Below are positions 15,105-45,979 of a stretch of 45,979 nt of DNA, one piece after another. Below the pieces are notes generated by a model that had not been told where the DNA came from, ran no database searches, and saw only the letters and a program-made list of their open reading frames with translations. The stretch is from IMG/VR virus record IMGVR_UViG_3300048828_000662, positions 1 to 45,979 of that record; one strand, 5' to 3'. The position numbers and the translations under genes were made by a program. This DNA is from a virus. Position 1 is the first letter of the stretch; the number at the start of each line of letters is the position of its first letter.

Positions 15105-18071
15105 ATGGCTACAAACAACAATAAAAAAAAGTTTTTTTATCCTCCAGCACCTCCAAGTGCTGACCAATCATTTTCACCTGATTTAGTTGGGTTACAGGTG
15201 GTTGATGGTGGAGGGTTAACGCAGGGTAATTTTGAATTTTCCACAAATATTGTTGAAAAAGTTAATAGGACATTTGAAACGGGTGTTTTTAGTAATCCCA
15301 TATCTTTAAACGACCTTGACGTTGGTAGTATTGAAGAGTCTAAAGCGATTGCAATAAAAAATTATAGAGTTTATCCAAACTATGATATAAGTCAAGTTAC
15401 TAATTACGCTCTTTATGGGTCATTACAGAAAAGACTGTCTACATCTATAACTAAAATAATTAATTTTTTTCCGGCTTCAATACAAGTAAATAGGGTTTCG
15501 TTACCATCTTATTCTAGTGCAAATACTGCTAATAATATAACATTTGATAGTGTTGAACAAATTACAACGTTCACTATGGATGTTACCAGATTTGATAATC
15601 CGTTTGATATTGATTATTCAGTAAATGCCGCTCGTAACATATCAGTTAGACCATACCCAACAAGTCCATTAAGGGATATGACCACCAATTATAATAAATA
15701 TGCTTTATATGTTAACGATATGGAAACTGAATATCCATTTGTTAATTTTATGGCGTCTCAAAACGTTTCTGCGGGTACTGTTACTGTAAGTGTAAAAGGT
15801 AACCCATTTAGTGGGTTAACCGCGTCAACAGATACACTAATATTAAGACCTACATCATTCAATACTGAATTTACATTTAAAGAAGATTTTGATGAGATTG
15901 AAGATTTTTTATTAAATAGATTTAGTAACCCACCATATACTGCGATATTTGATATGGTTGAAGAGACCGATGATGGGCAATTCGTAAAACGTAAAAAAAG
16001 GGTTACGTGGCCTAAATTAGGGGTATGGAATTTAGATATATCAACATTAAGATTTGACAATTACTTAACACAGGTTAGTGAAATTGGTGAGGTAATAGAT
16101 AGGTATAAAACTGATTTAATAGTTAGATTTTTAACTACAGGTGCTTTTAAAGACTTTGATACGGGTGATAAAAAAGTTGAAAAAGTTTTACAATTATACG
16201 GTAGAAGTTTTGATGAGTCTAAAAAATTCATAGATGCGTTATCTTTTATGAATTCAGTACATTATACTCCTCAAAATGATATACCTTCAGAATTACTACA
16301 AAATTTAGCACAAACTTTAGGATGGAATACAAATATTTCACCAATAACTAACGAAGATTTTTTAACATCAATATTTGGGACTAAAAATAAATCTATATAT
16401 CCTGGTTTTCAAAATGACCCGACACCTAATCAGTTAAATTTTCAATTTTATAGAAATTTGATACTGAATTCGGCTTATCTATTTAAATCAAAAGGAACAA
16501 GACATTCTATTGAGGCAATTATGAGGATGGTAGGGGCACCTAAAGATTTGATTGAGTTCAATGAAATAGTATACATCGCTGATGGTCCAATAAATGTAAA
16601 AAGATTTGAAGGTGAATACTTAAAACTGTCAGGTGGTACAAAAGTAGATGATGTACCCGCTTTAGACCCGAATGTAGTTTACAATATACAAGGTGTTACG
16701 TACACAGGTTTCACTACGTCAAAATATGTTAGTCAAACAGATGCTACAAGAGGGGATTACCCTATGAATGAGTATGGGTATCCAAAGAGACCCGTAACAA
16801 ATAATGAATATTTCTTTGAAAAAGGTGCGGGTTGGTATATTGAGACACCTGACCATAGAGCTATTGAAAAACTTGATATTACTAATTCAACATTTACAGG
16901 GGCTAACCCTAGTATACAAACATCTTTAGAGACTTTTACTTATGGTCAAAAGTATTTTGATAGATTTAGAAAGTTCCCATATATGAATATTGGTTTTGGG
17001 TTAACCAGAACTATTGATAATAATAAATCATGGGATGATACTGAAACAGGTATTAGGAGAAATCGTGATGGTGCGTATAATGCGTATTATGAGGTGTTTG
17101 ATGAAAAATTAGTACTTAACGCTAAAAATGTTGAATTATACTTAAACATGGCGCAAGGTATAACCTACGATATATGGAGAATGTCTAGACGTTATGGATA
17201 TCCATTTCCATCATCAGGTTTAACATCGCCTTATCCGTACCCTGGAGGTAAAGATTGGACCGTTATTAATCCACTACCACAGGAAAAAACATTTTTCGAG
17301 TTCGCTCAAACGTTTTATAATACATTAATAAATGTACGAAACAGACAGACTATTAGTGATGGGGCGGCCAACAGTTACCCAACATTACAGTCCATATATT
17401 GGAAATATTTACAATCGGAATCGGCGGTAAATATACCTTCAAATCAATACACTTATCAGAAGATGATTGATTTTACTTTAGGTATTGGTGATTATTGGAC
17501 AAAATTAGTTGAACAGATGATTCCGGCCTCTACAATATGGATGGGTGGTCAGAAAATGGTAAACAATGTTTTACAAAGACAAAAACATGTTTGGAGAAGA
17601 CAAAGAGGTTGTGAAATTATACCTATTGACTGTATTCCATGTATATACTACGGTCAGTTATTTGATAATGATTGTATTGACGAAACATTGACGTGTGATG
17701 TTAATATAAGTTCTATACCCACTATATTAAATAATAGTATTAATAGTTGTATTAATAAATCTGGGTACACTATTAATGACTGTGTACTAAACAGTTTAGT
17801 TAGTAAATGGTATGTTGATGTAAGATTAGACTCAACAATTTTAGTGCAGGAGGAATTTTATGAGGGACTTGGTGGACAAGATTACCCGACATTTACTGAT
17901 TGGATTATTGCGTTGAATGATAAGTTACAGTATTTATATCAAAGTGGTTTAAACTATACTATAGACAGTAATAATATTTTGACAGTAAGTAACACAGGAT
18001 GCGACCCCGAATTCACAAATAAAACTCTAACAGTAAACGTTGGTGTAAATGTAAAAATCAATTGTAGTTAA
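15105..18071 (+). CDS. Baseplate/tail protein with a P2 gpI-like region
   Basis: A 988-residue structural protein. Residues about 357-410 (YGRSFDESKKFIDALSFM ... IPSELLQNLAQTLGWN) and about 450-490 (FKSKGTRHSIEAIMRMVGAP) match the pattern of tail protein I type baseplate proteins, in which a helical core is followed by the 'lfKSKGTr.sIe' motif. In P2, gpI joins the baseplate wedge to the tail fibres, which fits its place between wedge genes and the fibre genes that follow. The N-terminus is Pro-rich (FFYPPAPPSADQ). The last about 110 residues add a Cys-containing module that resembles a segment of the next gene (see findings). The start is an ATG 2 bases after the previous stop; the stop overlaps the next start (TAATG). 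Confidence 0.68.
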   Translation: MATNNNKKKFFYPPAPPSADQSFSPDLVGLQVVDGGGLTQGNFEFSTNIVEKVNRTFETGVFSNPISLNDLDVGSIEESKAIAIKNYRVYPNYDISQVTNYALYGSLQKRLSTSITKIINFFPASIQVNRVSLPSYSSANTANNITFDSVEQITTFTMDVTRFDNPFDIDYSVNAARNISVRPYPTSPLRDMTTNYNKYALYVNDMETEYPFVNFMASQNVSAGTVTVSVKGNPFSGLTASTDTLILRPTSFNTEFTFKEDFDEIEDFLLNRFSNPPYTAIFDMVEETDDGQFVKRKKRVTWPKLGVWNLDISTLRFDNYLTQVSEIGEVIDRYKTDLIVRFLTTGAFKDFDTGDKKVEKVLQLYGRSFDESKKFIDALSFMNSVHYTPQNDIPSELLQNLAQTLGWNTNISPITNEDFLTSIFGTKNKSIYPGFQNDPTPNQLNFQFYRNLILNSAYLFKSKGTRHSIEAIMRMVGAPKDLIEFNEIVYIADGPINVKRFEGEYLKLSGGTKVDDVPALDPNVVYNIQGVTYTGFTTSKYVSQTDATRGDYPMNEYGYPKRPVTNNEYFFEKGAGWYIETPDHRAIEKLDITNSTFTGANPSIQTSLETFTYGQKYFDRFRKFPYMNIGFGLTRTIDNNKSWDDTETGIRRNRDGAYNAYYEVFDEKLVLNAKNVELYLNMAQGITYDIWRMSRRYGYPFPSSGLTSPYPYPGGKDWTVINPLPQEKTFFEFAQTFYNTLINVRNRQTISDGAANSYPTLQSIYWKYLQSESAVNIPSNQYTYQKMIDFTLGIGDYWTKLVEQMIPASTIWMGGQKMVNNVLQRQKHVWRRQRGCEIIPIDCIPCIYYGQLFDNDCIDETLTCDVNISSIPTILNNSINSCINKSGYTINDCVLNSLVSKWYVDVRLDSTILVQEEFYEGLGGQDYPTFTDWIIALNDKLQYLYQSGLNYTIDSNNILTVSNTGCDPEFTNKTLTVNVGVNVKINCS

Positions 18072-45042: not shown

Positions 45043-45979
45043 ATGAGTACAACAGTAGGTATAGATAGTGCGACAGGAGTATCACCATTTCAAATATGGG
45101 TGGCTGATAGTTGTGATGCGTTATCCCAACAAACATATCTTGGTCAGGTGGCGACTAATGCTGATTTTCCTGCGACATTTAATTTACCGACAATTTATGA
45201 AAATATACCGTTTTGTATTAAAGTTATAGATGCCGATTTATGTGTGGTTTGTGAATGTTTCGGGTTCGGACCATCACCTACACCGACAGCGACACCTACT
45301 GTTACCCCTACTATTACTCTCACGCCAACACCAACACTTACACCTAGTGCTACAGGACCATGTCTAAATGTCACTTATTATGATGGTGTGTTTGAAGGTA
45401 ATGGATTTACGGAGACGGTTAGATATACATTATCGACAACACTATTTAATGGACAAAATCAATGGATTTCACCAAATAATGGTTCAATACAGTGGTCAGG
45501 TACAAGATGGGAAATTTCAGGTTGGAATTTAGCTGGTGTAACATTTTATAATCCGGCTCCGATATTTCCTTCACCTAATACAACAAATTGGCTATACCAA
45601 GGTTGTGTAAATGGTGCGACATGTAGTGTATCTTTTACAACTGAGGATTGTGGTTTTCCAACACCAACACCTACTCCAACAAATACCGCTACGCCAACAA
45701 ACACTATAGACGTAAGTCAAACACCAACGGCTACATTAACACCAACTAATACGCCGACAGTTACATCTACACCTGATGCGACTTTAACTCCAACTCCAAC
45801 TAATACTCCAACTAACACACCAACTAATACTCCAACCAATACATCTACTATCACACCTACACCAAGTGTTACATCTACACCTGATGCGACTTTAACGCCA
45901 ACACCTACCTTAACACCTACCTTAACACCTACCTTAACACCTACTTTAACACCTACCTTAACACCTACTTTAACACCTA
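45043..45979 (+). CDS. Thr/Pro-linked fibre protein, 3'-truncated by the window edge
   Basis: The frame is open from ATG 45043 to the end, 312 codons. Residues 1-80 are a small domain (GVSPFQIWVADSCDALSQQT ... PFCIKVIDADLCVVCECF) similar in layout to the N-terminus of the gene at 23060, so the pair may share a virion-docking module. A Pro/Thr linker follows at about 81-105. A Cys-containing beta module occupies about 106-205 and includes IQWSGTRWEISGWN, a motif seen in several phage and adhesin proteins. From residue 206 onward Pro/Thr repeats run off the window, with two STPDATLTPTPT elements shared with the other mucin-like genes. It has no signal peptide. Confidence 0.75.
   Translation, partial: MSTTVGIDSATGVSPFQIWVADSCDALSQQTYLGQVATNADFPATFNLPTIYENIPFCIKVIDADLCVVCECFGFGPSPTPTATPTVTPTITLTPTPTLTPSATGPCLNVTYYDGVFEGNGFTETVRYTLSTTLFNGQNQWISPNNGSIQWSGTRWEISGWNLAGVTFYNPAPIFPSPNTTNWLYQGCVNGATCSVSFTTEDCGFPTPTPTPTNTATPTNTIDVSQTPTATLTPTNTPTVTSTPDATLTPTPTNTPTNTPTNTPTNTSTITPTPSVTSTPDATLTPTPTLTPTLTPTLTPTLTPTLTPTLTP
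45901..45979 (+). repeat. 12-bp tandem repeat running off the window edge
   Basis: Six full copies and a partial seventh of ACACCTAC(C/T)TTA encode TPTL. Copies differ only at one C/T position, unlike the codon-scrambled tracts elsewhere, so this array is a young expansion. Confidence 0.9.

Follow-up and report, generated by a model that had tools for sequence, protein, structure and literature searches.

The DNA analyzed here (hereafter the window; 45,979 nucleotides) is a whole virus record of IMG/VR, IMGVR_UViG_3300048828_000662, in which a ribonucleotide reductase gene is followed by gp25-like and gp6-like baseplate wedge genes (2658–4964, plus strand), tail-type genes and, finally, a locus where four genes with Thr/Pro tracts surround a four-gene operon. 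The wedge genes belong to the T4-like tail module that houses this locus. The operon, hereafter the cassette, encodes a GT60-like glycosyltransferase, a GT-B-like glycosyltransferase, a methyltransferase and a protein that joins an HtrL/YibB domain to a GT2-type domain (YibB-GT2). An initial annotation of the window had proposed that the phage glycosylates its own mucin-like fibers, and we followed up this proposal in further viral contigs, isolated phages and a genome collection.

We counted a residue as a tract residue if it lay in a 40-aa segment with at least 60% Thr plus Pro, and a gene as a tract gene if its product had at least 40 such residues. All four tract genes lie on the plus strand. 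The first (18071–22948) encodes a 1625-aa structural protein with SprB repeats (E = 3.3e-19), a candidate glycosylated fiber with 154 tract residues out of 1625 (tracts 19442–19720 and 21998–22180). The second and third are candidate mucin-like acceptors, with long, extended Thr/Pro(Ser)-rich tracts of the corresponding type. In the 980-aa product of 23060–26002, 682 residues fall into TPTN-type tracts (23285–23782 and 23870–25417), the longest unbroken span being 516 aa and a span of 166 aa ending 29 residues ahead of it. The gene at 37605–44936 starts 54 bp past the cassette and encodes a 2443-aa protein with 1036 tract residues, including an unbroken 908-aa span (39420–42143; further tracts 42444–42641 and 44460–44645). 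These two proteins were the ones to which the initial annotation had ascribed tracts of about 690 and 890 residues, in good agreement with the spans measured. The fourth gene (45043–45979; tract 45637–45978) is open at the window end, with 114 tract residues among the 312 inside the window; its product measures 638 aa in a near-identical longer record (IMGVR_UViG_3300048113_001078, hereafter G003; 69,645 bp). The window corresponds to bases 204–46182 of G003; the two differ at 20 positions, 19 of which lie in the final repeat-rich bases.

The tracts advance in TPT-x-TPT steps, with x mostly N, L or P. Third codon bases differ in 58–70% of comparisons between successive TPT units (the units were preselected as TPT, giving zero change at positions 1 and 2 by construction), and three or four synonymous codons are used for Thr and for Pro. 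Since synonymous positions are scrambled while the amino acids stay, the tracts are a long-kept protein pattern, neither a product of chance nor a young DNA repeat. In 80 random viral loci, none of the 691 genes encodes as many as 40 tract residues; shuffled tract proteins make no useful null, as it is their composition that carries the signal. Large minus-strand open reading frames (ORFs) facing the tracts were treated as antisense readings of the Thr/Pro codons.

Known host glycosylation signals, the N-x-S/T motif and the D-S/T-x motif of Bacteroidota, were considered as well. Host N-glycosylation is a poor explanation of the tracts, with N-x-S/T counts of 0, 1, 9 and 1 inside the four, as is Bacteroidota O-glycosylation, with a D[ST][AILVMT] count of 0. 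As a separate observation, the 160 residues at the N-terminus of the third tract protein (37605–38084) look Hint/intein-like by eye and end in HNVG; searches of Pfam, NCBIfam and the PDB gave no match, or in the PDB none that convinced.

The first cassette gene (32980–34248, plus strand) encodes a GT60-like glycosyltransferase that matches PF11397 with 219.9 bits (cut-off 21; E = 8.6e-65) and the glycosyltransferase family phrog_24687 with E = 4.5e-164, and carries a DxH motif at residues 97–99. Across 49 aligned GT60-like sequences, the window's included, D97, H99, E209 and H234 are invariant and S98 is nearly so; E209 and H234 are spaced by what we take to be the distance between the catalytic Glu and the metal His of GalNAc-T2. 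When the AlphaFold (AF2) model of the protein, with a mean predicted local distance difference test score (pLDDT) of 94.3, was compared with the PDB by Foldseek, the first 29 matches were all polypeptide N-acetylgalactosaminyltransferases (ppGalNAcTs; best E 1.9e-10, query TM-score (TMq) 0.51), several of them entries that contain mucin peptides. VIA-align, applied to the Foldseek matches, gave the 29 ppGalNAcT rows Z scores of 19.6–22.2 and the next GT-A enzyme 17.8. A Pfam search with E up to 0.1 found no C-terminal ricin-type lectin domain. An analysis of GT-A enzymes (PMC7185993) describes a change from DxD to DxH in GT27 and GT60, both of which perform polypeptide Ser/Thr O-glycosylation, and a review (PMC8724618) describes GT60 enzymes as protist initiators of mucin-type glycans that have no ricin domain. 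The window's enzyme is predicted to be a polypeptide-Thr GlcNAc- or GalNAc-transferase.

The two middle genes belong to the variable part of the cassette. The product of 34260–35258 (plus strand) had no family above cut-off in a profile search; in structure, its model (pLDDT 73, with poor quality in two of the five) resembles GT-B enzymes, protein O-glucosyltransferases among them (best E 5.7e-5), and we predict a GT-B glycosyltransferase. Its family of 11 sequences, from which methyltransferase-like rows of two loci (L037 and L088) brought in by single-linkage clustering were removed by eye before folding, keeps C231, R233, D234, E236 and G241 invariant. A predicted sugar O-methyltransferase follows (35266–35880, plus strand), with weak likeness to Methyltransf_24 (20.6 bits, under the cut-off of 26.3) and CmcI. 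The conserved last gene (35880–37550, plus strand) encodes an HtrL_YibB domain (PF09612, 60.6 bits against a cut-off of 24.1; E = 2.3e-16), far under the cut-off of the YibB equivalog TIGR02192 (67.9 vs 264.9 bits), followed by a GT-A domain like those of GT2 and TET-associated glycosyltransferases (TAGT). This C-terminal half scores 17.6 bits against the TET-associated family PF20691, under the cut-off of 27.5, and E = 1.2e-5 against phrog_842, an HMC-alpha-glucosyltransferase; an EDDM motif at 381–384 is invariant in 35 YibB-GT2 sequences. The PDB yielded no convincing sequence relatives for three of the cassette enzymes. Both the four tract genes and the four-enzyme operon of the initial annotation were thus recovered at the coordinates that it gives, the third enzyme and the GT2/TAGT half of the fourth by weak matches.

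GT60-like enzymes are common in viral contigs, as at least 592 viral loci match a GT60 profile. We used the best 80 of these together with two further viral scans, one seeded with GT60 (24 loci) and one with YibB-GT2 (best 80 of 150), for a total of 104 loci, not all of which come from distinct contigs, since some contigs recur or are nearly identical; the profile scan overlaps with the other two in its contigs. A tract gene lies within 8 kb of GT60 in 71 of the 80 profile-scan loci (average length 14.2 kb) vs 0 of 80 random viral loci (9.4 kb). In a non-redundant set of 49 cassettes, defined by a YibB-GT2 identity under 85%, 36 have a tract gene at most two genes away on either side; it lies directly upstream of GT60 in 16 of 47 and directly downstream of YibB-GT2 in 15 of 49, counting tract ORFs on either strand (in L100 the downstream one is a minus-strand ORF and perhaps antisense). 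The base rate of tract genes in seven cassette genomes is 32 of 1208 genes.

The association also holds in the other direction. Among contigs picked by their tracts (the 50 longest among the 80 matches listed), 19 contain PF11397 and 16 YibB-GT2, whereas PF11397 is found in none of 37 control contigs of at least 20 kb that share an arbitrary 16-mer (from 80 listed; Fisher p = 4e-6), and the tract pattern is likewise found in none of these 37. Restricted to contigs of 50–210 kb, the counts are 14 of 33 vs 0 of 11 (p = 0.007). The initial annotation had named a lack of such co-occurrence in relatives as one of the findings that would refute its proposal; the two gene types do co-occur.

The architecture of the cassette is regular. 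Both end genes are present in 86 loci of the two seeded scans, and in all 86 the two share a strand, GT60 lying ahead of the last YibB-GT2, with no hits to either gene on the other strand in these loci. In the profile scan, YibB-GT2 accompanies GT60 in 77 of 80 loci, all 77 in the GT60-first order. Deviations comprise an extra GT60 downstream of YibB-GT2 (L005) and several loci in which GT60 has no YibB-GT2 within reach (e.g., L014, L022, L023 and L025). Between the two ends lie 0 to 10 genes, and the 276 interior ORFs fall into 63 sequence families. A Pfam search with 148 representatives, for which 25 of 61 matched families were shown, found methyltransferases (Methyltransf_24, FkbM, Methyltransf_23, CmcI and TylF), glycosyltransferases (GT25, GT34, GT10, GT11, GT2, GT7 and the PLOD glycosyltransferase), DUF273, carbamoyltransferase and UDP-galactopyranose mutase; the families that could be named are mainly glycan enzymes.

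The ends of the cassette are kept while the middle genes are replaced between relatives. The 49 non-redundant loci have 36 distinct ordered interiors, and 169 of 244 pairs whose GT60 proteins are at least 75% identical have no interior family in common (158 of 233 without empty interiors). Even loci with very similar first enzymes can lack any shared interior family, as seen for L048 and L055 (94.5% GT60 identity) and for the window's twin L026 and L029 (90.5%). Because the middle enzymes vary, the window's four enzymes represent one version of a modular locus.

Three isolated jumbo phages carry both end genes. A tblastn search of 50,697 phage records, with the protein of the window or that of XacN1 as query, matched GT60 only in XacN1, RAS14 and CM1, and the same three are the only ones of nine records with any YibB-GT2 match in which that protein is covered to at least 80%. 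In XacN1 and RAS14 the cassette includes a carbamoyltransferase, 46–48% identical to metagenomic ones, and converges on a tail operon with a giant protein (3313 and 3138 aa, respectively) that has SPTPTP tracts near its C-terminus. Within ORF328–ORF334 of XacN1, ORF334 is the GT60 (46% identity to the window's) and ORF330, annotated as a hypothetical protein, is a 546-aa YibB-GT2 homolog (38% identity). The main text of the XacN1 paper (PMC5852040) reports at least two glycoproteins in the virion and counts two glycosyltransferases, ORF328 and ORF334; that text makes no mention of ORF330, ORF333, ORF325, proline or threonine.

The pairing of GT60 and tracts also exists in bacterial genomes. 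In the best 80 of 192 GT60 loci of the genome collection, 13 contain a tract gene and 11 both cassette ends. In a whole-genome search of 44 genomes outside phages, hand-picked from the 80 in a choice that took in 11 of the 13 tract-gene loci, the tract pattern lies inside the GT60 locus in 6, where 0.72 would be expected (P = 1.6e-5). In Jiulongibacter (1 of 1), an Acidobacteria metagenome-assembled genome (2 of 2) and Paraburkholderia ferrariae (41 of 41), all occurrences in the genome fall into this locus. Over all 80 loci, 7 hold the pattern, one of them (L552) among the 36 left out, and one locus (L532) may be a phage contig. GT60 genes of Trinickia and Paraburkholderia (L548 and L550) have a neighbor whose product contains a long (TP)n tract, in L548 together with genes that resemble those for type VI secretion parts. 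GT60 also stands next to or near tract genes in six loci (L529, L564, L567, L543, L597 and L565) of Jiulongibacter, Sphingomonas, Prosthecobacter and Acidobacteria, a possible bacterial mucin-type system.

Taken together, the phage probably runs its own mucin-type O-glycosylation of its fiber tracts, on Thr, during virion assembly. The GT60-like enzyme, with its DxH motif and ppGalNAcT-like GT-A fold, would add the first sugar to tract Thr in the cytoplasm, the acceptors being the Thr/Pro tracts of the fiber proteins encoded next door. The GT-B-like enzyme and the methyltransferase would then extend and methylate the glycan, and YibB-GT2 would carry out a conserved further step. The sugars and the order of reactions in this scheme are inferred, as is the benefit, which might be stiff, extended and protease-resistant fibers, adhesion, or a glycan disguise. 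The middle enzymes are exchanged in relatives between the two conserved end genes, and the glycans on this kind of fiber should therefore differ between related phages. We see roughly even chances that these are glycotype loci in the full sense, in which a GT60-like initiator and YibB-GT2 bracket exchanged sugar genes, relatives display different glycans on mucin-like fibers, and the pairing recurs in bacteria. The central proposal of the initial annotation, that the phage glycosylates its own fibers, is supported by the co-occurrence, the mucin-initiator fold and the presence of virion glycoproteins and both end genes in XacN1; its suggestions of adhesion, stiffening and protease resistance would follow only by inference.

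Several observations weigh against tract glycosylation by the cassette. Of the 49 non-redundant cassettes, 13 have, within the locus retrieved, no tract gene on the plus strand by the strict measure; one of these (L068) has a minus-strand one, and seven have no 24-mer with at least 55% Thr/Ser/Pro, a lax level that the other six reach but that 5 of 80 random loci reach as well. In one contig (G027) the cassette is present and the strict tract gene lies far off. Conversely, PF11397 is missing from 31 of the 50 tract-picked contigs, of which many are fragments but two are long (G058, 202 kb; G086, 125 kb). In our first 50 records the strict DNA tract pattern was equally common with PF11397 (29 of 42) and without it (5 of 8; these five were all seeded on gp6 and do not exceed 66 kb), and by itself this first set shows no difference. 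The random controls were matched neither for clade nor for fiber neighborhood, and the compared loci share ancestry. Likeness of fold to ppGalNAcTs is no proof of function, and the main text of the XacN1 paper leaves the identity of the virion glycoproteins unstated, its authors having seen no tail fibers (PMC5852040). In the genome collection, GT60 comes first in 7 of the 11 loci with both ends, a tract gene is immediately adjacent no more often than by chance (5 of 12, 3.39 expected; p = 0.21), the 44 searched genomes were chosen by hand, and 3 of the 6 enriched loci come from related Burkholderiales.

The two long contigs without a detected GT60 are a particular case. In G058 a frame at 109838–126256, adjoining relatives of the window's tail genes, devotes 5,059 of its 5,472 codons to tract of the TPTNTPTNTV type, and in G086 a frame that spans 4,247 codons or more includes 4,192 tract residues. 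Tracts therefore do not need GT60. G058 has a different glycan cassette, a 15-gene run at 68–80 kb, in which 7 of 10 genes scanned had matches, among them GT2-type, weak GT1-type, UDP-GlcNAc 2-epimerase and two FkbM methyltransferase genes. Another enzyme set may serve the tracts in contigs without GT60, although GT2/FkbM genes are not significantly enriched in such contigs (5 of 19 vs 3 of 26 random; p = 0.19).

The cassette might instead glycosylate fiber proteins outside the tracts, at folded tips, termini or hydroxyprolines made by phage 2-oxoglutarate (2OG) oxygenases, the tracts serving only as linkers. Such a division of labor would accommodate the 13 cassettes with no strict tract gene nearby and the 31 tract contigs without GT60, and the tandem OGFOD2-like oxygenases of G003 could make hydroxyproline, the acceptor of Skp1-type GT60 enzymes. 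We consider it unlikely: it leaves unexplained the two-way association with tracts, seen also in bacteria, and the model of the first enzyme resembles enzymes acting on mucin peptides. A search for the oxygenase family PF13640 found it in just 11 of 43 cassette records and had no match in XacN1 or RAS14, which makes hydroxyproline unlikely as a general acceptor; we keep it as possible for the window's own clade. This corrects the initial annotation, which had named hydroxyproline alongside Thr as an acceptor of characterized GT60 enzymes.

Remodeling of a host surface polysaccharide such as lipopolysaccharide (LPS) or capsule, with superinfection block or altered adsorption as its outcome, would suit other features of the cassette. 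The HtrL/YibB family is of host type and has links to LPS loci, GT25, GT10 and O-methyltransferases are common in surface-glycan loci, and the swapping of genes resembles that of O-antigen loci. This reading is nevertheless decidedly improbable, as the window's cassette lies within a fiber gene cluster on the same strand, its first enzyme is of the polypeptide-transferase type, and no flippase, polymerase or ligase is among the 25 of 61 interior families shown. Glycosylation of hypermodified phage DNA, for which diverse glycans have reportedly been published, draws on the weak likeness of the C-terminal half of YibB-GT2 to PF20691 and phrog_842. It is weakened, and in our view highly improbable, given a first enzyme of GT60/GT27 type, the site among fiber genes and the association with tracts; Tet_JBP was found in none of 43 cassette records, in a search that did not extend to dCMP hydroxymethylase, and this is a weak argument in that the controls were also without a match. 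Finally, large T4-like phages of certain hosts might carry both Thr/Pro linkers and glycosyltransferases by coincidence of clade, as the relatedness of the sequences, the lack of clade-matched controls and gp6-bearing contigs with neither (G110) or with tracts only (G058 and G086) would allow, but tract genes immediately beside the cassette, on either side and in different genomic contexts, and the same pairing in divergent XacN1-type phages and bacterial genomes leave this hardly any probability.

By gp6, the closest isolates are Flavobacterium immuto phages (27% identity), and a Microcystis phage as well as an uncultured phage come about as close; from the Flavobacterium phages and the SprB repeats of the first tract gene, our guess is a Bacteroidota host. 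Five fiber-like genes (starting at 26057, 27548, 29069, 29621 and 31840; 26057–32670, plus strand) separate the cassette from the tract genes upstream. Relatives of all five adjoin the cassette in L002 (72–100% identity), and relatives of 29621 and 31840 do so in L003, L028, L030 and L057 (45–59%). The products of 29069–29569 and 29621–31732 end in a similar segment (IPRMTQSQR or FPRMTSAQR, then GLLVYCT or GLMVYQT), and that of 31840 has a C-terminal domain in common with phrog_17490; these segments are perhaps tip or chaperone modules. Some 7–8 kb past the window end, G003 encodes the two tandem OGFOD2-like 2OG-Fe(II) oxygenases (53522–54912), the second above and the first below the Pfam cut-offs, which might act as prolyl hydroxylases in the clade of the window. 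Also beyond the window, G003 encodes a dTDP-glucose 4,6-dehydratase-like protein (E = 1e-90, under the equivalog cut-off) and a second protein of NDP-sugar epimerase type.

Mucin-type protein O-glycosylation is usually viewed as a trait of eukaryotic surfaces. If our reading is correct, a cytoplasmic viral version with an initiator, tracts of hundreds to thousands of Thr/Pro residues and exchangeable extenders would be a new way to vary the phage surface, and glycotype loci would be the viral counterpart of O-antigen variation. This could affect adsorption, the recognition of phages by antibodies and phage ecology, and would provide soluble initiators with which mucin-like glycopeptides could be made in bacteria. 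The isolates XacN1, RAS14 and CM1 make the proposal directly testable. Among the best-ranked papers of our literature search, we found neither GT60 in phages nor glycosylated Thr/Pro phage fibers, nor mucin-type chemistry on giant tracts or a swappable locus of this kind.

The cassette can be compared with several known systems. Bacterial O-antigen and capsule loci have conserved flanks with swappable sugar-building genes between them; the viral locus has the same plan of fixed flanks and swapped middle, but its product would decorate the virus particle and not a cell. With E. coli HtrL/YibB the last enzyme shares PF09612 above the cut-off, and differs in its fusion to a second GT-A-like domain and in scoring far under TIGR02192. 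In mycobacteriophages, virion glycosylation reportedly depends on phage-encoded glycosyltransferases. There, according to the work cited in PMC12619734, the glycans sit on virion proteins, namely at the C-termini of capsid and tail-tube subunits, whereas in the window's phage the predicted sites are fiber Thr/Pro tracts, served by a GT60-like initiator. The GT60 alpha-GlcNAc-transferases of Dictyostelium and Trypanosoma cruzi, including Skp1 Gnt1, resemble the first enzyme in PF11397, the DxH motif, the ppGalNAcT-like GT-A fold and the absence of a detected ricin domain, and, as described in PMC8724618, PMC6939170 and PMC7185993, in acting on mucin-like Thr-rich acceptors, for which there are candidates in the phage; unlike them, the phage enzyme is a predicted one, has no secretory pathway and is encoded in a swappable operon among tail genes. 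XacN1 has the same cassette ends (ORF334, 46% identity; ORF330, 38%) and a carbamoyltransferase between them. Glycosylation of phage virions is thus known in kind from mycobacteriophages and XacN1, as far as these sources describe it, and what would be new is mucin-type chemistry on giant tracts, built by a swappable locus.

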